Shown here in pieces: positions 38,001-53,026 of a stretch of 64,000 bases of DNA. The stretch is from Phycisphaerae bacterium (lineage in GTDB: Bacteria; Planctomycetota; Phycisphaerae; UBA1845; PWPN01). The stretch is taken from assembly GCA_012729395.1 (NCBI GenBank), contig JAAYDF010000155.1, positions 16,703 to 80,702 on the forward strand, in the 5' to 3' direction. Position 1 is the first letter of the stretch, and each line of letters begins with the position of its first letter. The notes under the pieces were generated by a model that saw only the letters and a program-made list of their open reading frames with translations, searched no databases and was not told where the DNA came from. Position numbers and translations under genes: made by a program.

Positions 38001-38199
38001 CGGGGACGCGGTTCCTTCCCACGCTTCGGATCAACGGCATTGAGGGCCAGGTTGGCCACGGCACCTGGAACATGCAGGCTGGGCTGCTACCTCTCGGTCC
38101 TGACCCGTTTTCCCGCGGCTCCATTGCATGGGACCCGGCCCCCAATGCCGATGATCCGGGGCCTCGACTCATTGACTTCAGCCGGCCGCCTGCGCCCGC

Positions 38200-39620: not shown

Positions 39621-40193
39621 TCATTGCCCGCTATCCGTTTCTTGCCCCGTGCTCGGAGCCGTAGAGGTCAGCCCGACCCGATCCCGGAACTCCTTGGGCA
39701 CGGGCCCCAACCGCCAATGATCTCCTTCTCGAAAAATCATGATCGGCAGGTTCACTTCTTTACGCCCCTTGCGATCCTCCTGCCGCAGCCTGGCTTGGGC
39801 CTCGACCACGTACACCGCTGGTGGGTCTCCCTCACCGGCGTGGATCCGCTGGATCTCGATCTCCTTGACCTGCGGCCAGATGCGTCGGAAATTGGCGAGA
39901 CTGGTCGGCTCGTAGATGCTCCCGAAGAGCTGGCGAAACGCGTCGTAATCCCCCATCTGGCACACCTGCAGGACATGCTCGACGAACGCGTTCAGGCTCG
40001 CGTCGCCCCCATGGACTCCGGCGGGGAAGATCACATGGGGACGCGGCGCGTGGGGAGCCTCCTCCACCAGGGTCTGGCGGTCGATCTGGGCGTCGCTGGC
40101 GTCGGAATCATCCCGTGAGCACCGGCAACCGCCCACCACGCAGGACGCCAGAACCATCGCCCAAGAAAACCTAACTATTTTTCTATTAAACAT
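39621..40193 (-). CDS. hypothetical lipoprotein
   Basis: This 190-residue protein has a short signal and a lipobox-like end (WAMVLASCVVGGC), followed by CSRDDSDASDAQID, suggesting membrane attachment and export. A region with SLNAFVEHVLQVCQMGDYDAFRQLFG resembles the NTF2-like or DUF-type fold of small export proteins. It then contains VYVVEAQARLRQEDRKGRKEVNLPIMIFREGDHWRLGPVP, a beta-rich ending. I do not recognise a family. The ATG at 40193 lies in an AT-rich stretch (ctatttttctattaaacat) that contrasts with the local GC content. It may follow the 40322-41224 gene on the same strand, but a palindrome separates them. Confidence 0.75.
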   Translation of the reverse strand: MFNRKIVRFSWAMVLASCVVGGCRCSRDDSDASDAQIDRQTLVEEAPHAPRPHVIFPAGVHGGDASLNAFVEHVLQVCQMGDYDAFRQLFGSIYEPTSLANFRRIWPQVKEIEIQRIHAGEGDPPAVYVVEAQARLRQEDRKGRKEVNLPIMIFREGDHWRLGPVPKEFRDRVGLTSTAPSTGQETDSGQ

Positions 40194-40321: not shown

Positions 40322-41224
40322 TCAGTGACTTGCGGTCGTGACCGGTCGGCGGAGCATTTCCGGGACGTGATCCTCGGCTGTGTCCAGCCCGGTGATGAAC
40401 TGCAGCTCGGTCATGGTCTGCTCGGTCTGGACCATGCTGGAGACGACCTGGTCCACCTGCCCGGAGATGAAATCGGGCTCGTGGCGGTTGATCGCCAACT
40501 CGCTGAGTGAGCGGATCTTGTTCTCCAGGCTGTCGAGCTGCAGCAGGACAAGCTCGCAGTTCTGGCGGGCCTTCTGTACGTTCGCCAACCGCGTACGGGA
40601 GGTATCCAGGTTATCCTGCAAGACTGCTTTGAATCGCTGCCGCTGTGTGTCGTCGCCCTTGTCGGCCAGGGCGGCCAGGCGAGCCTCGATCGCCCGGATG
40701 TCCGCCTGGATGCGCTGCTCGTCGGTTTTCTGGAGGAACTGATCGAGGGAATACTGTGTGAACAGCAGTCGCAGGTAGATCCACAAGAGCCGGTCGAGGC
40801 CTGCCAACTGGAGGGCCTCCAGCGGCGGCGGGTCGCCCAATTGCTGAGGATCGCGCATCTCGATGGCCAGTTGTCGCAACTCGGCGCAGCGGGCCCGCAA
40901 GCTCTCGAACCGCTGCACCGATGCCTTAGGAAGGGATCGGAGGATCTGCTGGACGACTTGGTGGGTGTCGACGGCAAGCTGACGGCCCTGGCGGTCGATC
41001 TTGGCCTCCTGGGCCTCGACGTAGGCCTGGAAGCGCGGGTGCGTACCGATCAGGCCGAGGTAGGCCAGTTCGGTCGCCAGCACCAGCGGACCGGCTACGT
41101 CGAATCGCCCGCTGAGCAGGGCGAAACCCATCCCCGCCAGGAACAGCAGCAGGTTCCATCGGTTGATGAACGCGGTCTTGAGATACTTACCCAGTCGCAC
41201 GGGTGATGTTCTTCCCCGGTACAC
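40322..41224 (-). CDS. two-helix membrane protein with coiled-coil, last gene of PspA-AAA locus
   Basis: Up to 300 residues; the track start is a GTG at 41224 and an internal GTG at 41200 (VRLGKYLKTAF) is equally possible. Two hydrophobic stretches, WNLLLFLAGMGFALLSG and VAGPLVLATELAYLGLIG, sit near residues 22-62. After them is a long helical, charged region (YVEAQEAKIDRQGRQLAVDTHQVVQQ, DKGDDTQRQRFKAVLQDNLDTSRTRLANVQKARQN) typical of a coiled coil, ending EDHVPEMLRRPVT. No enzymatic motif is visible. It is the final gene of the minus-strand row that begins with pspA, separated from the ABC ATPase by 189 bp containing a repeat palindrome. The arrangement suggests a membrane-anchored adaptor; I do not recognise a named family. 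Confidence 0.8.
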   Translation of the reverse strand: MYRGRTSPVRLGKYLKTAFINRWNLLLFLAGMGFALLSGRFDVAGPLVLATELAYLGLIGTHPRFQAYVEAQEAKIDRQGRQLAVDTHQVVQQILRSLPKASVQRFESLRARCAELRQLAIEMRDPQQLGDPPPLEALQLAGLDRLLWIYLRLLFTQYSLDQFLQKTDEQRIQADIRAIEARLAALADKGDDTQRQRFKAVLQDNLDTSRTRLANVQKARQNCELVLLQLDSLENKIRSLSELAINRHEPDFISGQVDQVVSSMVQTEQTMTELQFITGLDTAEDHVPEMLRRPVTTASH

Positions 41225-41298
41225 GTTGGAGACACGGTGCTTTCACTTGTCACTTTCTACCTCGGCACTCCTCAGCGAGCGGGCGAGAGACCTTTGCG

Positions 41299-41364
41299 GA
41301 GCCGCGACGGTAAGGGAGCGGTTGCTCGCTGTCGAGAAGAACCGCTCCCTTACGGTCGCGGCTC
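41299..41364. repeat. 68-bp palindromic repeat, copy 2
   Basis: gagccgcgacggtaagggag-cggttgctcgctgtcgagaagaaccgctccc ending tacggtcgcggctc. Same family as 35113-35180, with a longer loop. Confidence 0.9.
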
Positions 41365-41413
41365 TGCTCAGCGGTCGCGGCTGTGACACACCACATGCCG
41401 ATCACGCATTCAC

Positions 41414-42331
41414 TCATTCAGCCGCGCGGCTCTCTTCGAGCTCGCTGATCAGGTCGCGGATATAGGCGACGGTCTCCTGGAAGCGTGGCTCGCGTTGCAT
41501 CTGCCTGGATGGCCGATTGGCTGGCTCGACCTCCATCTCCCGCAGCAGGGTGCCCGGCGAGTTGCTCATGATGTACACCCGGTCACCTAAGTACACCGCC
41601 TCTTCGATCGAGTGGGTAACGAAGAACACCGTCGCCTCGACCTCCCGCCACAGGGTCACGAGCAGATCCTGCATGTTCATCCGCGTGTGCGGGTCCAGAG
41701 CGCCGAAGGGCTCATCCATGAGAATGATTCGCGGGCGAAGAATCAAGGTCCGGGCGATGGCCACGCGCTGGCGCATGCCGCCGGACAGCTCATGGGGGTA
41801 CTTGTATTGATCGACGTCGACGTTGAGGCCGACGCGCTGGATCCACTGGCGGCCGAGGTCGTGGCGGTCTTTCCGGCTGACGCCGCGGCACTCGAGGCCG
41901 AAGGTCACATTGTCCAACACCGTGCGGTGGTCGAAGCTGGTATAGTCCTGGAAGACCATGCCTCGGTCGGCCCCCGCACCGGTGACGGGCCGACCAAGAA
42001 CCTGCACCTCGCCCGTGGTGGCCGGGTGCTGCGGTTCGAGCCCGGCGATAAGCCGGAGAACCGTGCTCTTGCCGCACCCGCTGGGGCCGAGGACACAGAC
42101 GAACTCGCCGACATCTTTGATATCCTGAACCACGAAGCTGACGTCGCGGATGGCGGTGTGGGCGTTGGGTCGGCCGGCGTTGTAGGTCTTGGTGACGTTG
42201 CGGAACTCGACCACCGGCGGGCCGGCCAGCTTCGCCGGGATCGGCGGGTGATCGATCACGCGGCTGACGCCGATCGGGCCTGCGTCTGGATCGACGGGTT
42301 GCGGTGTGGGCGTCGGGGTGCCCTGGGTCAT
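41414..42331 (-). CDS. ABC transporter ATP-binding protein (SsuB/TauB type)
   Basis: The 305-residue ATPase contains Walker A LGPSGCGKSTVLRLIAG at about residue 85, a Q-loop in VFQDYTSFDHRTV, signature LSGGMRQRVAIARTLI, Walker B RIILMDEPFGALDP and the H-loop VTHSIEEAV. These are marks of the nitrate/sulfonate/taurine importer ATPases. The start overlaps the end of the permease gene as ATGA (42328-42331), so the two are coupled. A Pro-rich N-terminal extension (MTQGTPTPTPQPVDPDAGPIG) precedes the ATPase. With the adjacent permease and the solute-binding protein this makes a complete importer. The substrate is not clear from sequence. Confidence 0.94.
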   Translation of the reverse strand: MTQGTPTPTPQPVDPDAGPIGVSRVIDHPPIPAKLAGPPVVEFRNVTKTYNAGRPNAHTAIRDVSFVVQDIKDVGEFVCVLGPSGCGKSTVLRLIAGLEPQHPATTGEVQVLGRPVTGAGADRGMVFQDYTSFDHRTVLDNVTFGLECRGVSRKDRHDLGRQWIQRVGLNVDVDQYKYPHELSGGMRQRVAIARTLILRPRIILMDEPFGALDPHTRMNMQDLLVTLWREVEATVFFVTHSIEEAVYLGDRVYIMSNSPGTLLREMEVEPANRPSRQMQREPRFQETVAYIRDLISELEESRAAE

Positions 42332-43266
42332 GAGGCTTTCTCCTGGGAGGGGGTCGGCTGGCGGATCGCGGCCACCGGCGTCGGTTTGACCAGCAGGAAC
42401 TTGAATCGCTCCCAGCCCACGAGAAGCACATGCACCGCCCGGTTGAGGATACCTGAGCCGCCGTACCGATGCGGGAACAGCTCCCGCTGAATCCAGAACA
42501 GCCCTCGGTCAATCGCCAGGGCGACGATGGGAATGATGATCAGGACGAGCAGGATGTGCTCCTTGGGGCCGCGGCGTTGCGAGGTGATGATGATGTCACC
42601 CAAGCCGCCGGATTCGCCACCGAACTTGACCAGTTCGGCCAGCATGATGTAGCCGAACGCCAGCCCGAACAGCAGGCGCAGCGAGTTGAAGATGCTCGGG
42701 AAGGCGAGCGGGACGAGTACCTTGAGGATCACCTGTCGCCGGGCCGCCCCGAGGGTGTAGGCGGTATCGATGTAGCGGTCGTGCACCTCGGCGATGGCCC
42801 GGGCGGAATCTGAGAGGATGAACGCCACGCAGGCGATGAAGATGAACATGATCTTCTGCAGCTCGCCGATGCCGAACAGTGAGAAGGTCAGCGGGATCAG
42901 GGCGGCGACGGGGATATTGCGGCCGAAGATCGAAACCGGGGCGAAGAAGGCCCGCAGGAAGGGGAAGCAGCCGCAGAGGATGCCCAGGGGTACGCCTACC
43001 GCGGTCGCCAGACCGAATCCCAAGGCGACTCGCCGCAGGCTGGCCAGCGTGTTGCGGGTGAGTGCCCGGTCGAACCACAACTCGGGGAAGGTGGCGAAGG
43101 TTTCGTGGGGACTGGGCAGCACGGTGGGACTGAGCAACCGCTGCTCCGGCTCACCATGGGTCGCCAGCCACCAGACCCCGAGAACAGTCAACAGGCAGCC
43201 GAGGGCGAACAGGAGCCCCTGCCACCACGCCACCTCGCGACGCAATCTGAAGAAACCGCTGAACAT
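42328..43266 (-). CDS. ABC transporter permease (SsuC/TauC type)
   Basis: About 312 residues from the ATG at 43266; the track start at 43275 is a TTG. Hydrophobic segments cover most of the protein (WWQGLLFALGCLLTVLGVWWLA, ALGFGLATAVGVPLGILCG, IPVAALIPLTFSLFGIGELQKIMFIFIACVAFILSDSARAI). The cytoplasmic EAA loop resembles DTAYTLGAARRQVILKVLVPLAFPSIFNSLRLLFGLAFGYIMLAE, where the ATPase docks. This matches the single-subunit permeases of sulfonate/nitrate importers. It is encoded 295 bp after the binding protein gene on the same strand; that gap holds three repeat types. Confidence 0.94.
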   Translation of the reverse strand: MFSGFFRLRREVAWWQGLLFALGCLLTVLGVWWLATHGEPEQRLLSPTVLPSPHETFATFPELWFDRALTRNTLASLRRVALGFGLATAVGVPLGILCGCFPFLRAFFAPVSIFGRNIPVAALIPLTFSLFGIGELQKIMFIFIACVAFILSDSARAIAEVHDRYIDTAYTLGAARRQVILKVLVPLAFPSIFNSLRLLFGLAFGYIMLAELVKFGGESGGLGDIIITSQRRGPKEHILLVLIIIPIVALAIDRGLFWIQRELFPHRYGGSGILNRAVHVLLVGWERFKFLLVKPTPVAAIRQPTPSQEKAS

Positions 43267-43310
43267 AAAGGTCAACTCATTGGATCAGAAGGTGTGCGAG
43301 ACGCCTTTTC

Positions 43311-43372
43311 AGAGCGACGACTGCAAGGGAACGGTCGCTCGCTGCCGAGAAGAACCGCTCCCTTAGGTCGGG
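43311..43372. repeat. 68-bp palindromic repeat, degenerate copy 3
   Basis: agagcgacgactgcaaggga-acggtcgctcgctgccgagaagaaccgctccc ending ttaggtcgggca. The arms match the 35113 and 41299 copies imperfectly. Confidence 0.8.
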
Positions 43373-43403
43373 CATTTGCCAGATGGCCATGCACACGCAG
43401 ACA

Positions 43404-43432
43404 CTGCTCACAGAGCAGTGCCACACGATCAC
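43404..43432. repeat. 29-bp repeat with CTGCT/AGCAG hairpin, copy 2
   Basis: Exact copy of 14974-15002, in the same orientation relative to the neighbouring minus-strand genes (upstream of a minus-strand start in both cases). Confidence 0.75.
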
Positions 43433-43504
43433 GCTACCCGCTCGTCGTTCGTCACTTCTCACGAATGCTGAGCGCCTTCTTCCTTATGCCTTCTTCCTTA
43501 TGCC

Positions 43505-43560
43505 CACTGCCTACTGCCTTCTGCCTACTGCCTTCTGCCTACTGCCTTCTGCCTTCTCCG
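43505..43560. repeat. short tandem repeat (ctactgccttctgc)n
   Basis: The 14-bp unit ctactgccttctgc occurs about three times plus partial units, directly after the stop of the PBP-OmpA gene. Confidence 0.8.
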
Positions 43561-43561
43561 C

Positions 43562-45289
43562 TCAACCGGGGCTCTCCGCGGGGTAGATTTTGACCTCGAC
43601 GCGGCGGTTGCGGGTATGGTTTTCGGGGTCGGTGGCGTCGGCGGGCCGATCCCAGCCCATGCCCTCGACGGCGAGTTGGTTGGGGTCCAGGCTGTACTTG
43701 CGCACCAGGGACTCCTTGACCGCGTTGGCCCGGTTGAGCGAGAGCTCCTTGACCAGGCTGGCGGGCACCTGTCCGCGCATCGAAGAATCCGTGTGGCCCT
43801 GGATAATAATCCGGGCGGCCCCGAACTGGCCTGCCAGCTTGGCGATATCTTCGAGCACGAAATCGACGTTCGGGTCGTAGAGCTCCTCGACCTCCTTGCC
43901 ATCCACTTTCTTGGTGATCTTCTTGTCCAGCTCCCAACTGTTGGGGAAGAAGTGGATGAACTGCGTGTTGGTGAGGATCTCCTCCTCGGCTCGGATGGTA
44001 CCCGCGCTGGCGGGCGTGAATCGCACGGTGTACTCATCCTTCTGCGAGGCGTAGCGTTCCTCCTGTCCGAGCTTCTGGATGACCGAGAAGTCCATGACCT
44101 GATCGAAGGGCACCGGCTGGTGGCGGATGGCCCCGATGCGTCGATACAGGTAATACGACTGGTTCCAGATCCGCTCGAAGTTGGCGGGGTTGTTGCGGTT
44201 GAGGAGGAACTGGAAGTTCTCCGCCCAGTTGGTGCTGTGGGCGTCGCCGAACATGGCCAGTGTCTCGCTGGCGGGGATGTTGTAGCCGACAGCCATGAGC
44301 TCGGCAGCCTGCTTGCGACGGCTTTCGTCTTTGAGCTCCTCCATGGCGTCGAAGATACCGCGGACCAGCCCCTCGATGATCGCGGGATGGTCGTGGGCGA
44401 AGTCGGCGCGGGCGAACCACACATCGGCGATCAACTTGTTGGCGGTGGCGGTAGTGACCAGCATGCGGTTGCCGCGCACCTTCTCGAGGTTGTAGATATC
44501 CGGGGCCCAGGAGACGGCGCCGGCGATATCCTTCTGAGCGTTGAACGCCGCGGCGGCTTGGAAGGCGTCCTCGGTGTAGACCATGCTGACTTCGGAGGGT
44601 TGGATGCCGCCGGCCACGAGCATGTTCAGCGCGAAATACTGCGAGGGCGAGTTCTGGGCGAGCACCAGTTTCTGGCCGCGGAGGTCGGTCACGGTCTTGA
44701 TGTGGTCGCGAACGACGATACCGTCGCCACCATTGGACCAATCGACCTGCTGGAAGATGCGCGGCATGACCCGGCTATCGCGCGGCTTACCGCTGCTGTC
44801 CACGAAGCCGTCCATGAACAGCGGGACCATATCAAGGGTGGCCCAGCCGATGTGCAGGTCGCCGGCCGCGTAGGCGTCGCGCATGGCCACGGGGTTATCA
44901 ATCAGCACCAGTTCGACCTTGAACTCCTCGCCGCCGGGGGCCTTCCATACTTTGCCCGGGCCGAACCCGTTGTTGGCGAGGATGATGGGTGCCCAGCCCG
45001 CCCAGACATTCAGAGCAAAGCGAACCGTGTTGTCGGTCAACGGCTTGTACGCCGACGTGCCTTTGACCTCCGGCAGCCGTTCAGTGGGCAGGAAGGTGTA
45101 CTCCTGGACCGTGGTGATGCCGTCGGTTTGAAGGGGGTCCTCCACCGCCTGAGCGAGTGGCTCGCCCGTGGTTGGCTCGCCCCCCTTGGGCGCGAAGATG
45201 TCGCTGCGATAGATGGCGAACGCCACCAGCGCGGCCACGACGATGATGAGCACGAAGTAGAACGCGGGTTTCGGTTGTCCTGCTGCCAT
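43562..45289 (-). CDS. membrane-anchored ABC solute-binding protein fused to OmpA domain
   Basis: 575 residues from the ATG at 45289, eight bases after GGAGG; the track start at 45304 precedes it. An N-terminal helix without a clear cleavage site ([18 protein letters not shown], about 8-26) should anchor it to the inner membrane. Residues about 65-400 form a periplasmic binding protein of the NMT1/SsuA kind: [66 protein letters not shown]. Residues about 465-575 are an OmpA-type peptidoglycan-binding domain: [27 protein letters not shown] and [26 protein letters not shown], with the Asp/Arg positions present. The product can therefore link the importer to the cell wall. It lies between the VWA gene and the permease gene on one strand. 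Few standard ABC systems carry such a fusion. Confidence 0.93.
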
Positions 45290-45314
45290 CGGATCATCCT
45301 CCATTGGGAGCCGT

Positions 45315-46154
45315 CTAATCTTCCTTTTCGGCCGGCATGGCCTCCGCCAGAATGCGCTTCTCGTAAATATCCGTCAACCGCTGCTGGAGTTGGGGCGCGT
45401 CGGCGGCCTCGACCGCGAAGCCGTTGACCGCGTTGAGAAAGTCAAAGTAACCCGCCGAGGTATCGAAAGCCACGAAGTGCAACTCGACCTCGCCCGCGGT
45501 CTGAGCGTACAACTGCCGGGCGACCCGATCGGCCGGCGGGCCGGAGGTATTCTGCCCGTCGGTGATGCATACGACGTACTTGCGCACGCACCCGGACTGG
45601 TAGAGCGATTGGAAGGCGACCTGAAGGGCCCTACCAATGGCCGTTCCGCCCGCTGGCCTGGGAAGGCGTTGCAGGGCGTCGGGGACACTCTTCGCGTCAA
45701 ACGGCGCCATGGGCAACACCGGGGAGACGGAACTGGAGAAACTGGATACGCCGATTTGCAGCACGCGATCGGGATTGGCCTGCTGCCATTGGCTGGTATG
45801 CTCGAGAATACGGGCGAGAGCCTCTTTGGCGATATCGCTCTTGGGCCTGGGCCGACCGTCGTGGTCCTGCACGGCGTCCCGCATGCTGCCCGAGGTATCG
45901 ACCAGGATGGCGACGGCGGTGCACAGCCGCTGTTCGGTCTCGGGCAGAGGGATGACCGCGTGGGGTCGTGGGGCGACCGCGACCGGTGCGGGCGTCACTC
46001 TCGGAGCCGGCGATGAATGCTCTTGCCGGGTCACCGCCCAAATAGCAAGGGCCAGCACGACCACGATACCTGCGAAACCGCCGGGACCGCGTGTGCCAGC
46101 CGATCCTCTGGCCAGGCCGATAGCCCGGAAACCACGGAATTGGCGATGGTGCAT
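45315..46154 (-). CDS. membrane-anchored von Willebrand factor A protein
   Basis: 279 residues from the ATG at 46154, with AAGGAGG seven bases upstream; the longer track start is a TTG. A hydrophobic stretch, [16 protein letters not shown], near residues 27-42 anchors it, with the rest outside. The VWA domain begins [16 protein letters not shown] (MIDAS DxSxS present) and includes [13 protein letters not shown] and [14 protein letters not shown], the other metal-coordinating loops. Such domains bind protein partners through a metal ion. It ends with [16 protein letters not shown]. It is directly upstream of the PBP-OmpA gene with a 25-bp gap, so both are likely made together. Confidence 0.92.
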
Positions 46155-46371
46155 GGCGGCATCCTCCTTCAAGCTTGGACTCGCTGGCGACCCGCCAGGC
46201 GGACCTGCAGGCCTGGGAGGTATTGGACCGTATCGTGCGGCGCCGGGCCATTATAATGCCCACGCCATTTTCGAAGCCTTCGACCGCCCGTCGCATTTGC
46301 CGCTGCTACATGAGGTAACGCGAGTTCCCGCTGAGAGGCGATCTTCGCGGTGCGACCGATTGTCGCCTCAG

Positions 46372-46899
46372 TCAACCCTGGAACTCGACCTTGGGCCGCG
46401 CCTCGTGCATGGCGTGCAAGACCTGCATCAGGTCGTAGGCGGTCAGCTCGCAGAGCAGCCTCGTAACCTGGACGTGCAGTCCGTCGTCGAGTTGCGGCTC
46501 GATCTCTTTCATCAGCCGCACCAGTCGATTTTCCTGATCGCGCAGCTCGCCGGCCTCGATCACGCCGTCGGCCATAGCTTCCATAAAAGAGGTAAGCTGG
46601 CGGGCGTACCGCTCGATGACCGGCTTCTGGGCGGCCTCGTCAAGCCAACTCGGTCGGTTGGCGCTGATCTTCGGTGCCGCCGCCCTGGGGGCCGCTTTGC
46701 CCGTGGCAGCCTTGCGAGCGGCCGGTCGCTTCTTGGCGACGGCCTTGGCGGTCCGTGCGCCGGCCGCCTTGGTGCTCGGCTTCTTCTTGGGTGCCTGCTT
46801 CTTGCCGCGCTTCACGGGCTTGGCCTTCGCCGCGACTGCCTTTCGAGCGCCGGCAACCTTTTTCGCACTCGCCTTCTTCCCGGTCTTCTTCTTGGCCAT
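46372..46899 (-). CDS. histone H1-like lysine/alanine-rich protein with conserved helical C-terminus
   Basis: 175 residues from the ATG at 46899, which has GAGGA upstream; the longer frame to 46965 adds no family sequence. The first about 90 residues are AKK/KKPA-rich (MAKKKTGKKASAKKVAGARKAV), like bacterial histone-H1-type tails that bind DNA or other acidic polymers. After SANRPSWLDEAAQKPV comes a helical domain: ERYARQLTSFMEAMADGVIEAGELRDQENRLVRLMKEIEPQLDD and LLCELTAYDLMQVLHAMHEARPKVEF. The domain is not one I recognise, and its acidic charge contrasts with the tail. It sits between the AAA+ ATPase and the VWA gene on the same strand, so it may be part of that system rather than a general nucleoid protein. 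Confidence 0.8.
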   Translation of the reverse strand: MAKKKTGKKASAKKVAGARKAVAAKAKPVKRGKKQAPKKKPSTKAAGARTAKAVAKKRPAARKAATGKAAPRAAAPKISANRPSWLDEAAQKPVIERYARQLTSFMEAMADGVIEAGELRDQENRLVRLMKEIEPQLDDGLHVQVTRLLCELTAYDLMQVLHAMHEARPKVEFQG

Positions 46900-46966
46900 G
46901 CTATTGTCCTCGCCCCGTGTCCAACATTCATCGCCCAGAACGTGCATCAAAAGCCAGACCAGCAAT

Positions 46967-47037
46967 CAGAGCCTCGCTCGTGAAGAAGCGGTGGCTCGGA
47001 TCGAGAAGAACCGCTTCCTCACGGGCGCGGCTCTGAT
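46967..47037. repeat. 68-bp palindromic repeat, degenerate copy 4
   Basis: tcagagcctcgctcgtgaag-aagcggtggctcggatcgagaagaaccgcttcc ending tcacgggcgcggctctga. Same arrangement as the copies at 35113 and 41299, located between the H1-like and AAA+ genes. Confidence 0.8.
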
Positions 47038-47079
47038 TGACGTTCTCGCCCTCATCGCTCAGTACTCAGCTCTCAGTAC

Positions 47080-48927
47080 TCATTTCCCTTCCAGCAATTG
47101 CCGAATCGCCTGCAATCGCTCCTGCAGCATCCCGCGGCCGTTGGGTTGGGTGACTCGGTCTCGCCAGTCGGGCGGCAGGAAGCCGAGCTGCGTGCACTCC
47201 AGGACGGATGCCAGCTCCTGCAGCTCTTTCTCCAACCCCTGAACCGATGGGAGGAACTCGTCGGCCGCTTGCCGGAGGTCATCCGGCTCGACGGTCGCTC
47301 GGCCGGCGGTCAGCACGCGTCGCTGGGCGGCCAGCAGGATACTCTCGATATCGGCTCCGCTGAGCGTCCGATCGACCGGCAGCGAGGGCAGCCCTTCGGA
47401 CGCCAGGGCAATCCGGTTCTTGCGGGCCAGGGCCCGGATCATGCCCTGCACCTCGGCCTCGCTCTGCGGATAGAAGAGGGGGATGTGCACCTCGGCCCGG
47501 CCCTGCCGCTTGAGGTCGATGGGCAGCAGGTCCGGCCGACAGGTCAGGAGCATCCACACGATCCGCCCGCGATACCGCGTGTCGCCCATCTGGCTGGCGA
47601 TCATGGAGAACACCCGGCTGGACGTGCCCGAGTCGCCGTCCGCCGACCGGTTGCCCAGGGCGGCGTCGGCCTCGTCGATGATCACCACCACCGGCCCGAG
47701 CGAACGCAGGACGGTCAGGACCTGTTCGAGGTTGCCCTCCGTCTCGCCCACATATTTGGAGCGGAAGTTCCGCAGTTTGACGCAGGGGATACCGATCGAG
47801 CCAGCGTAGCACTCGGCCAGGAAGGTCTTACCCGTACCCACTGGCCCGGAGAAGAGGTACCCCATAGGCGCCGCTTCCAGCCGGCCCTGGGTAATCAGCT
47901 CGGCATCCTCGCGCAGGCGGTTCTTGGCCGCCTCCTGGCCCACGACGAGGTCCAGCGAGTGGCCAGGCTCGATGAACTCGACAAGGCCCTGGCATTGCCG
48001 TTCGATCATGGTTTTTTTGAGCTGGCGGAAACGGGCGAGGTCACTACCCGCGCCGGCCACTCGGGCCTGCGCGAGGATGGCGTTGAGGCTGATGAGGCTC
48101 AGGCCGCTGGACAGGTCGGCCAGCCGGGCGGGCGCGGGCTCGGCCGACTCGGGGGCGGCGGCGACTTGGTCGCGTGCGGCCCACTGGATGAAGCTCTCGC
48201 GGGCTGCGCGGTCGGGCATGGGGATCTCGATGGCCGCGACGTGGGCACTCTGCACCAGGCGATGGTTGACTTCGGTCAGTCTGTCGGCCACCAGGCAGAA
48301 GGCGACGTTCACCCGCTTGATGTACGGGTTCTGAGCCCAGCTCAGCAGGCGGACGAGGCTCATGCCCTGTCCACGGGCGAGCGTGCCGACGTCGCCAGCC
48401 GGCGCCAGGTACTGGGCATAGTCGAAGAGCAGGCCGATGCTGCGCCGCTCGTTGGGCTTGTCCTCCACAAGATTGCGCTCAAGGAGGCGATCGAGCAGAA
48501 CCAGCACGCGTTCAGGGTCGCGAGGCCACTGGGCCGGGTCGCCCAGCCGACCGGTGAGATACTGCATCATCGTCTGGAGCCGGCCTGGGTCGGCTCCCGC
48601 CAACGGCCGCAGGCCTTGCCCCAGATCGTAGCCGAGCACGACATCCCACGCGCCGAAGACCTGCCCGGCCAGGAACTCCGTCAGGCTGCCATAGCGCTCC
48701 TGGCTGCCCTCGCGGTAGGGAACCAGATCGTGGACGTTACCGTGCAGGATGAACAGGCAGGTGGTGCCGGCGAAGTACATTTCCGCCAATTCCCGGGCCC
48801 AGGCGGGGTACCAAGGGGGGAGTGATGAGTACTGAGTACGGAGGGATGAGGGATGAGTACTGAGTGATGAGTATTGAGTGCCGGGCGAAGACACGGGCGG
48901 TGCGGGTGGGGTGGGCTGGTCAGTCAT
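47080..48927 (-). CDS. AAA+ ATPase with two tandem modules
   Basis: 615 residues from the ATG at 48927 (the track start at 48975 is 16 codons upstream). Residues about 15-40 are repeat-derived (SSPGTQYSSLSTHPSSLRTQYSSL). A first module at about 45-240 lacks a Walker A but has LFILHGNVHDLVPY, RVLVLLDRLLERNL and SIGLLFDYAQYL, resembling a degenerate ATPase. The second module is complete: GYLFSGPVGTGKTFLAECYAG (Walker A near 359), VVVIIDEADAALGNR (Walker B near 414), a sensor region with SRVFSMIASQMGD and WMLLTCRPDLLPIDLKRQGRAEVHIPLFYP, and a C-terminal helical part. It resembles classic-clade ATPases that remodel proteins. It lies between pspA and the H1-like gene, and ATPases paired with PspA are known in envelope-stress systems. 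Its substrate is unknown. Confidence 0.92.
   Translation of the reverse strand: MTDQPTPPAPPVSSPGTQYSSLSTHPSSLRTQYSSLPPWYPAWARELAEMYFAGTTCLFILHGNVHDLVPYREGSQERYGSLTEFLAGQVFGAWDVVLGYDLGQGLRPLAGADPGRLQTMMQYLTGRLGDPAQWPRDPERVLVLLDRLLERNLVEDKPNERRSIGLLFDYAQYLAPAGDVGTLARGQGMSLVRLLSWAQNPYIKRVNVAFCLVADRLTEVNHRLVQSAHVAAIEIPMPDRAARESFIQWAARDQVAAAPESAEPAPARLADLSSGLSLISLNAILAQARVAGAGSDLARFRQLKKTMIERQCQGLVEFIEPGHSLDLVVGQEAAKNRLREDAELITQGRLEAAPMGYLFSGPVGTGKTFLAECYAGSIGIPCVKLRNFRSKYVGETEGNLEQVLTVLRSLGPVVVIIDEADAALGNRSADGDSGTSSRVFSMIASQMGDTRYRGRIVWMLLTCRPDLLPIDLKRQGRAEVHIPLFYPQSEAEVQGMIRALARKNRIALASEGLPSLPVDRTLSGADIESILLAAQRRVLTAGRATVEPDDLRQAADEFLPSVQGLEKELQELASVLECTQLGFLPPDWRDRVTQPNGRGMLQERLQAIRQLLEGK
48821..48881. 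repeat. gtactgagtacggagggatgag repeat, translated within the AAA+ gene
   Basis: agtgatgagtactgagtacg followed by gagggatgagggatgagtactgagtgatgagtattgagtg, a simple tandem repeat that encodes the N-terminal QYSSLSTHPSSL residues on the minus strand. A short relative lies at 47055-47085 near the gene's stop. Confidence 0.8.
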
Positions 48928-49036
48928 GAGTTCGCTCGCCTTTTTGCGACGGAGATCCGCAGTCCGCCGCATCACTCAATGCTCGTCACTTATGATTCAA
49001 CCTGACCGGTTTGCGGGTACCGCTGATCGCAACTCC

Positions 49037-49130
49037 AAAGAGCCGCGGGCTTTAGCCCGCGCGGTGCTCGTGCGGAAGGCGACCGTTGATCGCGGCCAAA
49101 GAGCCGCGCGGGCTGAAGCCCGCGGCTCGT
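49037..49130. repeat. gagccgcgggctttagcccgcgcgg repeat, two inverted units
   Basis: agagccgcgggctttagccc-gcgcggtgctcgtgcg, and then an inverted copy ending gggctgaagcccgcggctcg. Same family as 34978-35092. Located between the AAA+ and pspA genes. Confidence 0.85.
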
Positions 49131-49153
49131 TATCGCGTATCGGTCAGTTTGAG

Positions 49154-49897
49154 TTACACCTCCTCCGTCACCTTCGGCCCGAGCTGTTTGGCGGTTTCCT
49201 CGACGCCGACGGTGGCCGGGGTAACCAGGCCCATCTCCACCTCGAACTCCTTGAGGGCCTGATCGGCCAGGGCCTGTTCCATGGCCTGCTCGCGCTGCAC
49301 GTCGACGATGCCCTCGGTGGACATGTCGGCGGCGACGCGGGCCTTGGCCCGGTTGAGGCTGATCTTGTCGTTGATGACCTGCTCGATCTGCCCAAAATCG
49401 GTGGTGACATTAAAGTCGAAGGAGGTGGCCAGCTTGGCCATCTCGGCCTCGGCCCGGCTCATCTTGAGCTCGGCGTCGTAACGAGCGATCTTCTCCTTGA
49501 CCTTGGCGAGCTTGCCGCTGGCGTGTCGGATCTTCGACAGGTTGTTGTCGTAGGCCTGCTCATGCATCTTGAGCTGTTCTTCGTTCTCGGCGAGGCCCTG
49601 TCTGGCCTTCTGCAGCTCGAGGGCGAAGCGAGCGGCCGACTCGCGATCGCCCGCCTGCAGGTAGGCCTTGACCTTGGCTTCGAGGCTGCGAACATGCCCG
49701 CGGTCGGCAGCCGCCTGCCGACCAACGCGCTCCACGAGCGCCCGGTATTGCTCCAGTCCCTCTCGCCCCTCCTTGAGCTGGGCGACGGCCAGATCGTACT
49801 CGTACTGCATCTGGGCGATGGGGTCCGCCGTCCAGAAGACGTTGGCCAGCTTGTTGATCTGGGCCATGAGGGTATGCCACAGCTTGCCGATGATCAT
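49154..49897 (-). CDS. PspA/IM30 family envelope-stress protein
   Basis: The 247-residue protein is mostly helical: VFWTADPIAQMQYEYDLAVAQLKEGREGLEQYRALVERVGRQAAAD, VRSLEAKVKAYLQAGDRESAARFALELQKARQGLAENEEQLKMHEQAYDNNLSKIRH and VKEKIARYDAELKMSRAEAEMAKLA. This coiled-coil pattern with an amphipathic N-terminus is that of the PspA/Vipp1 (IM30, ESCRT-III-like) membrane-repair proteins. It would bind the inner surface of the cytoplasmic membrane under stress. The C-terminus, with VGVEETAKQLGPKVTEEV, is short. The ATG at 49897 has GGTGAGGTG upstream. It is the first gene of the minus-strand row with the AAA+, H1-like, VWA, PBP-OmpA and ABC genes. No pspB or pspC is present. Confidence 0.93.
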   Translation of the reverse strand: MIIGKLWHTLMAQINKLANVFWTADPIAQMQYEYDLAVAQLKEGREGLEQYRALVERVGRQAAADRGHVRSLEAKVKAYLQAGDRESAARFALELQKARQGLAENEEQLKMHEQAYDNNLSKIRHASGKLAKVKEKIARYDAELKMSRAEAEMAKLATSFDFNVTTDFGQIEQVINDKISLNRAKARVAADMSTEGIVDVQREQAMEQALADQALKEFEVEMGLVTPATVGVEETAKQLGPKVTEEV

Positions 49898-51164: not shown

Positions 51165-51794
51165 ATGGTCACGGTCGATGACATTGTCGTACCTCCGCCC
51201 GAACCCGGACAAATGCTGGACTTCGCGGCTCTGTTTGGGGATCGTCAGCCGGTGGAGCTGGAGATCGGGAGCGGCAAGGGCGGCTTCCTGCTTCGCCGGG
51301 CTCAGGCCCTGCCGGACCGTCGGTTTCTGGGCATCGAGTACGCCAATAAGTTCTTCCTCTACGCCGCCGACCGCATGGCCCGCTGGGGGATAACCAACGT
51401 GCGGCTGATGCGCACCGACGCCCGGCACCTGGTGATACACCACCTTCCGCCGGCCAGCGTGCACATCCTGCACATCTACCACCCCGACCCGTGGCCCAAG
51501 CGACGGCACCAGCGGCGACGCCTGATCCAGCCAGCGTTTGTGGCCGCGGTGGCGGAGGTGCTGATGCCCGGCGGGCGACTGGCGATCCAGACGGATCATG
51601 CCGATTACTTTGAGCAGATCCGCGAGGTCGTCGGGCGAGAGAGCCGGCTGCTCCCGGCCGATTTTGACGTGCCCGAAGCGGGAGTACGTGAAGGCCGGGT
51701 CGAGACCAACTTCGAGATCAAGTACCTGCGCGAGGGCCGGGCGATCTATCAGTTGGCGGCACAAAAACCGATGGCACCAGAGAGCAGCGAATGA
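51165..51794 (+). CDS. trmB: tRNA (guanine-N7)-methyltransferase
   Basis: 209 residues from the ATG at 51165, close to the usual TrmB start; the longer track frame begins at a TTG (51060) and its first 35 residues have no family sequence. The key blocks are VELEIGSGKGGFLLRRAQ (SAM motif), FLGIEYANKFFLYAADRM, HILHIYHPDPWPKRRHQRRRLIQP (the PDPWPKxxHxxRR motif), GGRLAIQTDHADYFEQI and ETNFEIKYLREGRAIYQL. It methylates G46 in the variable loop of tRNAs. The stop overlaps the next gene's ATG (ATGA at 51791), so the two are coupled. Confidence 0.95.
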   Translation: MVTVDDIVVPPPEPGQMLDFAALFGDRQPVELEIGSGKGGFLLRRAQALPDRRFLGIEYANKFFLYAADRMARWGITNVRLMRTDARHLVIHHLPPASVHILHIYHPDPWPKRRHQRRRLIQPAFVAAVAEVLMPGGRLAIQTDHADYFEQIREVVGRESRLLPADFDVPEAGVREGRVETNFEIKYLREGRAIYQLAAQKPMAPESSE

Positions 51795-53026
51795 TCTACG
51801 CCGTACTGACGGGTATGTTCCTCTTGCTGACGATCGTGGGCACGATCGTCTGGTACCTCGGCGCAACACACCGCGAGGGGCACTCGGTGCACTGCTACAA
51901 GTGCGAACACAACCTCGCGGGCGGACCGCTGACCGAGTGTCCGCGCTGCATGACCCCGCAACCGGAGAACAAGATCCTGATCGGCGAGCGGGCTCCGCGG
52001 CCTATGTGGATTCTTGGCGGTCGGATATGCCTGGTGCTGGCGCTGGCCGCGATTGTGCCTGTGCTGCTCCAGTTGCACGGCAAGTTCCGGTCCGAGTGGT
52101 ACTGTTTCCGCCCGACGTTCATGGTGCTGAGGGAACTGGAGGGAGGGGCACTGGCTTCGCGGGCGATGGACGAACTGGCTACTCGGTGCCGGATCGGCCA
52201 GCTCTCGGCGCCACAGACGGACCAGGCGATCGAGATCGTGTTGGCGGGCTTGGCCACGCCGGAGATTCCCGGGCGGCCTCTGCAGGGGCTGCGCGACCTG
52301 GCGGCGACCTTCGTGGAAGCGGGACACTTCTCGGCCAGCCAGACGCTCGAGCTGTTCGACGCCCTGGATGACGTGAGCTACGCGTTCGTCCCGGGCGATC
52401 AACCGGAAGGCGGCAGCGTGCGTCTGACCGGCGGTGTCTTCCCGCCGAACGGCTGGGTTCCCCGCCGCAAGGTGCGGGTTGTCGAGCTGGACGGACAGCC
52501 CGCCGATCAGGTGATCTTCGAACGGCACGATTATCCCGCACGGAGCGAGGAAGGCTTCGCCATCCGCGAGGCAGCGGTCAGCTTCGCGGTGCGCGAGTCG
52601 ATCCGCCTCCGAGTCACCACGGCGTGGCAGAACTTCAAGGCGGACCTGGTCTCAGAGGACTTGGCGGCGGCGACCGGCCCTCGACGCGAGGTTCTGCTCG
52701 CACGCTTGGCCAAGTTGATTCCCCGGCCACTGGTCGTTTACGAACAGGAGTTCAAGTTCGGCGAGTTCAACGCCGGCCAAGCGAGGCTTATCGAGCACAC
52801 GGATCGTCGGCTTCTACAAATGACCCCCAGCGTGCCCGAAACGCAAACCTACGTACCCGAAACGCAAACCTACGAGCCCGAAACGCAAACCTACGAGCCC
52901 GAAGCGCAAGCGCCGGGAACGGGGAGCGCCAGCGACGTATGGTCGGCAGATACGCATGGACACGTCCATCCACAAGTTAGCTTGATCCGACGTCAACGAG
53001 TCGATGAAACCCCGATACCTCACTGA
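51791..53026 (+). CDS. membrane protein with zinc ribbon; C-terminal repeat-derived tail
   Basis: The 411-residue protein begins with a membrane helix (AVLTGMFLLLTIVGTIVWYLG). A zinc ribbon follows, CYKCEHNLAGGPLTECPRCM (CxxC-x11-CxxC, about residues 35-54), and a second hydrophobic segment, ICLVLALAAIVPVLLQL. The middle is helical (LATRCRIGQLSAPQTDQAIEIVLAGLAT). A beta-rich part (RKVRVVELDGQPADQVIFERHDYPA) follows. From about residue 348 the sequence changes to PETQTYVPETQTYEPETQTYEPEAQAPGTGSASDVW, which is the dispersed repeat seen at 9278 and 35824 translated in frame. The last 60 residues are thus repeat-derived. It starts at the ATG overlapping trmB's stop. No function is evident beyond a membrane zinc-binding protein. 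Confidence 0.8.
   Translation: MIYAVLTGMFLLLTIVGTIVWYLGATHREGHSVHCYKCEHNLAGGPLTECPRCMTPQPENKILIGERAPRPMWILGGRICLVLALAAIVPVLLQLHGKFRSEWYCFRPTFMVLRELEGGALASRAMDELATRCRIGQLSAPQTDQAIEIVLAGLATPEIPGRPLQGLRDLAATFVEAGHFSASQTLELFDALDDVSYAFVPGDQPEGGSVRLTGGVFPPNGWVPRRKVRVVELDGQPADQVIFERHDYPARSEEGFAIREAAVSFAVRESIRLRVTTAWQNFKADLVSEDLAAATGPRREVLLARLAKLIPRPLVVYEQEFKFGEFNAGQARLIEHTDRRLLQMTPSVPETQTYVPETQTYEPETQTYEPEAQAPGTGSASDVWSADTHGHVHPQVSLIRRQRVDETPIPH
52830..52945. repeat. dispersed repeat inside a gene 3' end
   Basis: Three tandem units of cgaaacgcaaacctacgagcc type and then cgaagcgcaagcgccgggaacggggagcgccagcgacgt. The last part is the reverse complement of the acgtcgctgacgctcc...cccggcgcttgcgcttcgggctcg unit at 9278-9376. 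Confidence 0.8.

Follow-up and report, generated by a model that had tools for sequence, protein, structure and literature searches.

Co-inheritance of PspA, a tandem AAA+ ATPase and an OmpA-fused binding-protein importer in a gene row of a Phycisphaerae bacterium

Operons encoding PspA together with a double AAA+ ATPase, the N-terminal copy of which is inactive, have been described by Ravi et al. (2024, PMC11237479). In the passages of that paper covered here, longer operons add a transmembrane (TM) Snf7-like protein, an ABC ATPase, a permease and a PBPB-OmpA protein (for example, OGG56892.1), and ATP-dependent remodelling linked to transport is suggested, with the same peptidoglycan and solute logic that we follow below. 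The same passages call the assembly control of PspA homologues without an associated AAA ATPase unknown. PspA belongs to the ESCRT-III superfamily (PMC11746142, PMC8281802), and PMC10936438 states that ESCRT systems combining ESCRT-III with Vps4 occur only in archaea and eukaryotes. Here we analyse a row of eight minus-strand genes in a 64,000-nucleotide stretch of DNA from a Phycisphaerae bacterium (assembly GCA_012729395.1, contig JAAYDF010000155.1, positions 16,703 to 80,702; hereafter the window). Judged by the covered passages of PMC11237479, the row is a member of the kind described there, extended by a VWA protein and by a helical domain of about 95 amino acids (aa). We give roughly even weight, for and against, to the reading that the row encodes one envelope machine, in which a remodelling cycle of PspA and the AAA+ protein, docking through the PspA tail, would be coupled to a wall-tethered importer. 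That PspA and the AAA+ protein form a functional pair we hold with more confidence than the mechanism as a whole. The genes are as follows.

49154..49897, minus strand: pspA (PspA/IM30), 247 aa; PF04012, E=3.3e-11
47080..48975, minus strand, likely start 48927: tandem AAA+ ATPase, 631 aa; Pfam AAA on the second module (D2), 4e-23
46372..46965, minus strand, likely start 46899: helical domain of about 95 aa behind a histone H1-like tail; no Pfam family
45315..46172, minus strand, likely start 46154: membrane-anchored VWA protein; VWA_2, PF13519, E=7e-13
43562..45304, minus strand, likely start 45289: solute-binding protein (SBP) fused to an OmpA domain, NMT1/SsuA-like; PF09084, PF13379 and PF00691; NMT1 2e-6, OmpA 8e-12
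42328..43275, minus strand: ABC permease of SsuC/TauC type; BPD_transp_1, PF00528, E=1e-18
41414..42331, minus strand: ABC ATPase of SsuB/TauB type; ABC_tran, PF00005, E=4e-26
40322..41224, minus strand: helical protein with two TM helices, 300 aa; no Pfam family, AlphaFold2 (AF2) model

An open reading frame (ORF) check of the window places all eight genes on the minus strand where the original prediction, made from the sequence alone, had put them. Pfam families support six of the eight proteins, the H1-like and the eighth protein being unmatched. Four true starts are likely to be internal to their ORFs (AAA+, H1-like, VWA and SBP-OmpA). The start of the ABC ATPase gene overlaps the permease stop by four bases, and the other intergenic gaps are about 25 to 290 bp.

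The likeness to the operons in the covered part of PMC11237479 is close. The window PspA lies beside a two-module AAA+ protein whose N-terminal module has no Walker A, and the ABC ATPase, the permease and SBP-OmpA are in one row with a TM helical partner. There are also differences. VWA is absent from the main text of that paper, its AAA+ section contains no conserved domain of about 95 aa, and the PspA tail motif is not in the passages covered. The eighth protein combines a helical bundle with two TM helices, but profile and fold comparisons gave no link to PspA or Snf7, and the kinship implied by the name 'Snf7 with TM' in those passages is not confirmed for it. The row had been put forward as an undescribed system; the core is already in PMC11237479, so that novelty lies in the additions. 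As far as the covered passages go, the domain of about 95 aa as a core member, VWA as a recurrent member, the co-retention of dispersed genes and the conserved PspA tail appear to be new.

The locus can also be set against other known systems. As in ESCRT-III/Vps4, an ESCRT-III-superfamily protein with a short C-terminal motif is encoded next to a dedicated AAA+ protein, and a small protein encoded alongside could be its cofactor, in the way that Vta1/LIP5 serves Vps4. However, Vps4 is a single AAA cassette with an N-terminal MIT domain, whereas the window protein is a p97/Rix7-like tandem with a degenerate first module (D1), and the PspA tail is not a recognised MIT-interacting motif (MIM). 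With the canonical Psp response of enterobacteria (PspF/A/B/C) the row shares PspA/IM30, but PspB, PspC and PspF were not found among the eight row proteins or the two neighbours scanned. Finally, the permease, ATPase and SBP have the folds of SsuABC/TauABC, but the SBP is membrane-anchored and OmpA-fused and the scores fall under the curated cut-offs.

Conservation and co-inheritance of the gene set

The complete row is present in identical order in five other genomes of the same order (loci L020, L022, L023, L024 and L026). Contig ends truncate loci L019, L021 and L025, the last of which has no VWA gene between the H1-like and SBP genes. Strong relatives of SBP-OmpA (75-81% identity) occur in 9 of the 40 other genomes of the order, and the AAA+ protein has precisely the distribution of SBP-OmpA: both are in the same 10 of the 41 order genomes. 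This co-retention holds where the genes are dispersed. In one of the ten genomes, G015, VWA and SBP-OmpA are still paired, while the AAA+ gene is about 230 kb away and the other genes are elsewhere.

A wider search with an SBP-OmpA alignment against named genomes gave 375 loci, of which the best 80 were scanned with profiles. These 80 are mostly from Planctomycetota, with some from Acidobacteria, one from Gemmatimonadetes and one from a 'Deltaproteobacteria' metagenome-assembled genome, and single cases may be binning errors. A core of seven genes emerges, for PspA, the AAA+ protein, the helical domain of about 95 aa, SBP-OmpA, the permease, the ATPase and the two-TM protein. In the 36 amply flanked loci from Planctomycetota and Acidobacteriota, PspA is found in 34, the AAA+ protein and the helical domain in 32 each, the permease and the ATPase in 35 each, the two-TM protein in 34 and VWA in 8. 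The part comprising PspA, the AAA+ protein and the helical domain is thus as conserved as the ABC part, and conservation of the row is not confined to the ABC genes. VWA is a recurrent extra member, found in two lineages.

Comparison of neighbourhoods in planctomycetes and other phyla, as the original prediction had proposed, recovers this core in two gene orders: PspA-AAA-domain-(VWA)-SBP-permease-ATPase-2TM in Planctomycetota and VWA-PspA-SBP-permease-ATPase-2TM-AAA-domain in Acidobacteria. That one gene set recurs in a different arrangement in another phylum speaks more strongly for a functional link than conserved gene order alone would. Among 392 genomes of the phylum, SBP-OmpA is present in 32, the AAA+ protein in 67 and the two-TM protein in 39; 30 of the 32 SBP-OmpA genomes also have the AAA+ protein (Fisher 5e-24, kinship ignored), and this includes genomes in which the genes are dispersed (G015, G347). 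Across 48 loci the seven proteins have correlated distance matrices (r=0.74-0.95), although shared ancestry alone also gives correlation. Taken together, the data agree with the earlier proposal that PspA, its AAA+ partner, the wall-tethered SBP and the importer belong to one system, in that the genes are co-inherited, those for SBP-OmpA and the AAA+ protein even when dispersed. The function proposed with it, sensing or repair of envelope damage along with import of a solute, is still an inference.

The PspA tail, the AAA+ ATPase and the partner proteins

The window PspA is the product of the only PspA_IM30 gene found in a search of its genome. It carries a C-terminal tail, K-x-L-G-P (as KQLGP, about residues 237-241). 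In this protein and its relatives the terminal stretch contains K-x-[LMI]-G, in many cases with P after it, whereas the other PspAs of the phylum end in an ELxALKxEL-type sequence. AAA+-linked PspAs keep the motif even at 24-29% identity to the window protein (L074, L075, L085, L086 and L070). Among 62 PspAs of named loci, 59 of which have an AAA+ gene in the locus, the loose form K-x-hydrophobic-G is present in all 59 AAA+-linked proteins and the strict form in 38; in shuffled tails the strict motif turns up at 0.3%. The phylum's PspA_IM30 proteins were also surveyed separately: of 47, 27 come from genomes with the AAA+ protein and 14 of these have the strict form, against none of the 20 from other genomes.

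Contrasts within single genomes are better evidence than these counts. G170 has three PspAs, with the motif only on the one adjacent to the AAA+ gene. Two genomes, one of them Aquisphaera insulae, keep an intact tail (RQLGP or KQLGP) on the PspA next to the AAA+ gene, whereas the tail of the PspA in the SBP operon is decayed (GRLSQ or DRLGP) and the AAA+ gene is elsewhere. The tail tracks the AAA+ protein, also in these contrasts, and is therefore a candidate AAA+ docking motif. This points to a role comparable to that of the MIM in ESCRT-III (described in PMC7618577), with a different sequence.

SBP-operon PspA paralogues with decayed tails lie at L133 (6971-7723) and L162 (6019-6756), where a second, AAA+-adjacent PspA keeps the motif; these pairs are a natural case of split function. 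An explanation of their decay by loss of the AAA+ gene is wrong, since both genomes have one elsewhere beside an intact-tail PspA. In genome G121, a second AAA+ protein of the family and a second PspA with a KTIGP tail lie on different contigs, C53 and C37 (L087, L238).

The AAA+ protein had been read as having two modules, and this is what the AF2 model shows (pLDDT 85.8): two alpha/beta modules that carry helical lids. In Foldseek about 600 columns align with the tandem AAA+ proteins Rix7, p97/Cdc48 and NVL (E about 1e-19), with TM-scores of 0.35-0.5, which suggests that the modules are oriented differently in the model and in these matches. In the homologue alignment D1 is degenerate, with FVLHGNVHDL in place of a Walker A, while D2 is intact, with a GPVGTGKT Walker A and a DEAD motif that are kept in homologues. 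In sequence searches D2 groups with Cdc48/VCP-type ATPases. No MIT domain is present among the Pfam matches of the row proteins. By the features tested the AAA+ protein is not a Vps4, although it may work like one, and the restriction of combined ESCRT-III/Vps4 systems to archaea and eukaryotes (PMC10936438) therefore stands.

The gene for the helical domain directly follows the AAA+ gene in 59 of the 60 loci with both. Described earlier as an H1-like protein with its own helical domain, its product does have a conserved C-terminal domain of about 95 aa (residues ~103-197); the H1 label fits only the Lys/Ala-rich N-terminal tail, which is present in the window's order and a few others and missing in most orthologues. 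Because the tail is lineage-specific, the label is not key to function, and the score against the histone H1-like family is below the cut-off (22.9 against 80 bits). The domain has no relative in Pfam or the PDB, and a TerB-like assignment (ADGxI motif) found no support in either.

The eighth protein, taken earlier for a two-helix coiled coil, is instead a two-TM helical protein. Its AF2 model (pLDDT 88.3) has hydrophobic helices at 22-37 and 41-61, a long helical bundle, which is presumably cytosolic, and a conserved C-terminal tail in which L274 and P288 are invariant. Its gene follows the ABC ATPase gene in 60 loci. A Foldseek search of the PDB gave no match at E<=0.001.

SBP-OmpA consists of an N-terminal TM helix, an NMT1/SsuA-like binding domain and a C-terminal OmpA domain, and its orthologues start M-x-GQPK. 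It is the most conserved protein across phyla, with 63% identity between Acidobacteria and Planctomycetota. In the OmpA domain, D506 and R525 are invariant, which for an OmpA-like domain suggests that it binds peptidoglycan. The ABC ATPase has a GPSGCGKS Walker A and an LSGGMRQR signature. NCBIfam TauC/SaoP matches of the permease are below cut-off, as are all curated family scores (TauB 210.9 against 357, TauC 102 against 342, taurine SBP 48 against 490). In the VWA protein the metal site (MIDAS) is intact, with D92, S94, S96, T177 and D205 invariant in 15 proteins; it has a membrane or lipoprotein anchor, and several orthologues have an N-terminal Cys as in lipoproteins. Elsewhere, a remote SBP-OmpA protein (26% identity) is encoded at L028 (7998-10388) downstream of small coiled-coil genes, with PspA and AAA+ genes not nearby, and possibly represents another system with a wall-tethered binding protein.

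A possible remodelling cycle and its alternatives

The one-machine reading starts from features seen in sequence and model, namely the parts and their linkage, the degenerate D1, the intact D2 motifs and the tail motif. PspA would form an ESCRT-III-like polymer coating the inner face of the cytoplasmic membrane. The tandem AAA+ protein would bind the flexible PspA tail (K-x-hydrophobic-G, often then P), and its D2 ring would extract subunits from the polymer, so that the coat is reshaped and recycled as ESCRT-III is by Vps4. The domain of about 95 aa may be a cofactor of the AAA+ protein encoded next to it, and the two-TM protein a membrane adaptor that brings the machinery close to the ABC importer. 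At the outer face, the SBP is predicted to have two anchors, the TM helix in the membrane and the OmpA domain on peptidoglycan, and VWA, where present, may bind it through the MIDAS. Signals from a solute or the wall, received at the tethered SBP, would then reach both the importer and the PspA/AAA+ cycle.

We consider it tenable, though rather less than evenly balanced, that the row provides bacteria with a counterpart of the ESCRT-III/Vps4 cycle, based on a p97-type tandem AAA+ protein, with tail docking, a pseudo-AAA D1, the cofactor of about 95 aa and PspA turnover at peptidoglycan-tethered transporter sites. If true, bacteria would have a dedicated ATP-driven way to take apart PspA coats. 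The row offers a bacterial PspA with a co-inherited tandem AAA+ protein and a short, testable tail motif. Additionally, a PspA tied to a wall-anchored transporter would give Planctomycetota and Acidobacteriota a possible route from cell-wall state to the membrane-repair machinery.

Several observations count against a single machine. The loose tail form is also present in 5 of 27 canonical PspAs, and the motif counts are not independent because the tail-bearing PspAs are related to each other. The two-TM protein is no recognisable PspA/Snf7 homologue (hhalign probability under 1%, no Pfam family). At L065, L066 and L069, PspA, the AAA+ protein and the helical domain are encoded without transporter genes nearby, so that coupling to transport may be loose. 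These last loci favour the view that two machines share the locus, a PspA/AAA+ remodelling module and a taurine/nitrate/urea-type importer with a wall-tethered SBP, both selected by a common stress with no physical coupling. Consistent with this, the transporter block occurs without an AAA+ gene nearby at L133, L162 and L097, and the nearest families of the SBP are urea, taurine and sulfonate importers. However, whole-genome co-retention of dispersed genes and the strong distance correlations argue for a connection, and at L067 (2TM-AAA-domain, without PspA) the two-TM protein, encoded after the ABC ATPase elsewhere, takes the place of PspA beside the AAA+ protein. We judge two uncoupled machines to be unlikely, though a serious alternative.

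The ABC proteins could also be a device for mechanotransmission or lipid handling, comparable to FtsEX or Mla, giving PspA an ATP-driven signal of the state of the wall or outer membrane. The predicted double anchoring of the SBP in membrane and peptidoglycan would fit the sensing of force or distance, and the SBP is linked with PspA and the AAA+ protein. However, the permease and ATPase are normal importer subunits of SsuC/SsuB type whose motifs are intact, and the strong conservation of the SBP is as expected of a binding protein, which makes such a device quite improbable. The Lys/Ala-rich tail found in the window's order, together with PADLOC IetA matches of the AAA domain (45 bits), might suggest a system linked to the nucleoid or directed against phage, but this is very improbable indeed, as most orthologues do without the tail, PADLOC gave only generic matches on common AAA and ABC ATPase cores, and the other parts have no convincing defence-family match.

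Edges of the row and neighbouring sequence

The seven flanking genes were searched in the loci of the order and are unshared, except for a distant relative of the adjacent lipoprotein gene (39621-40193, minus strand) in L027, a locus without most of the row. This lipoprotein belongs to a widespread uncharacterised family without a Pfam family, with relatives at other loci. It was considered as a ninth gene but is not part of the system, since relatives occur in 37 of 41 order genomes and it does not lie beside the row in the loci read. The row is therefore a unit with its edges at pspA and the two-TM gene. Promoter and terminator scans gave counts close to those of shuffled sequence and were uninformative.

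A scan for RNA elements found only a signal recognition particle (SRP) RNA and one tRNA, both outside the row. The small SRP RNA gene (38042-38140, minus strand; RF00169, 58 bits) lies between a dnaX-like gene and a peptidyl-prolyl isomerase gene. Finally, the ORF at 51791-53026 on the plus strand has near-identical repeats near its end, PETQTYVPETQTYEPETQTYEPEAQ.

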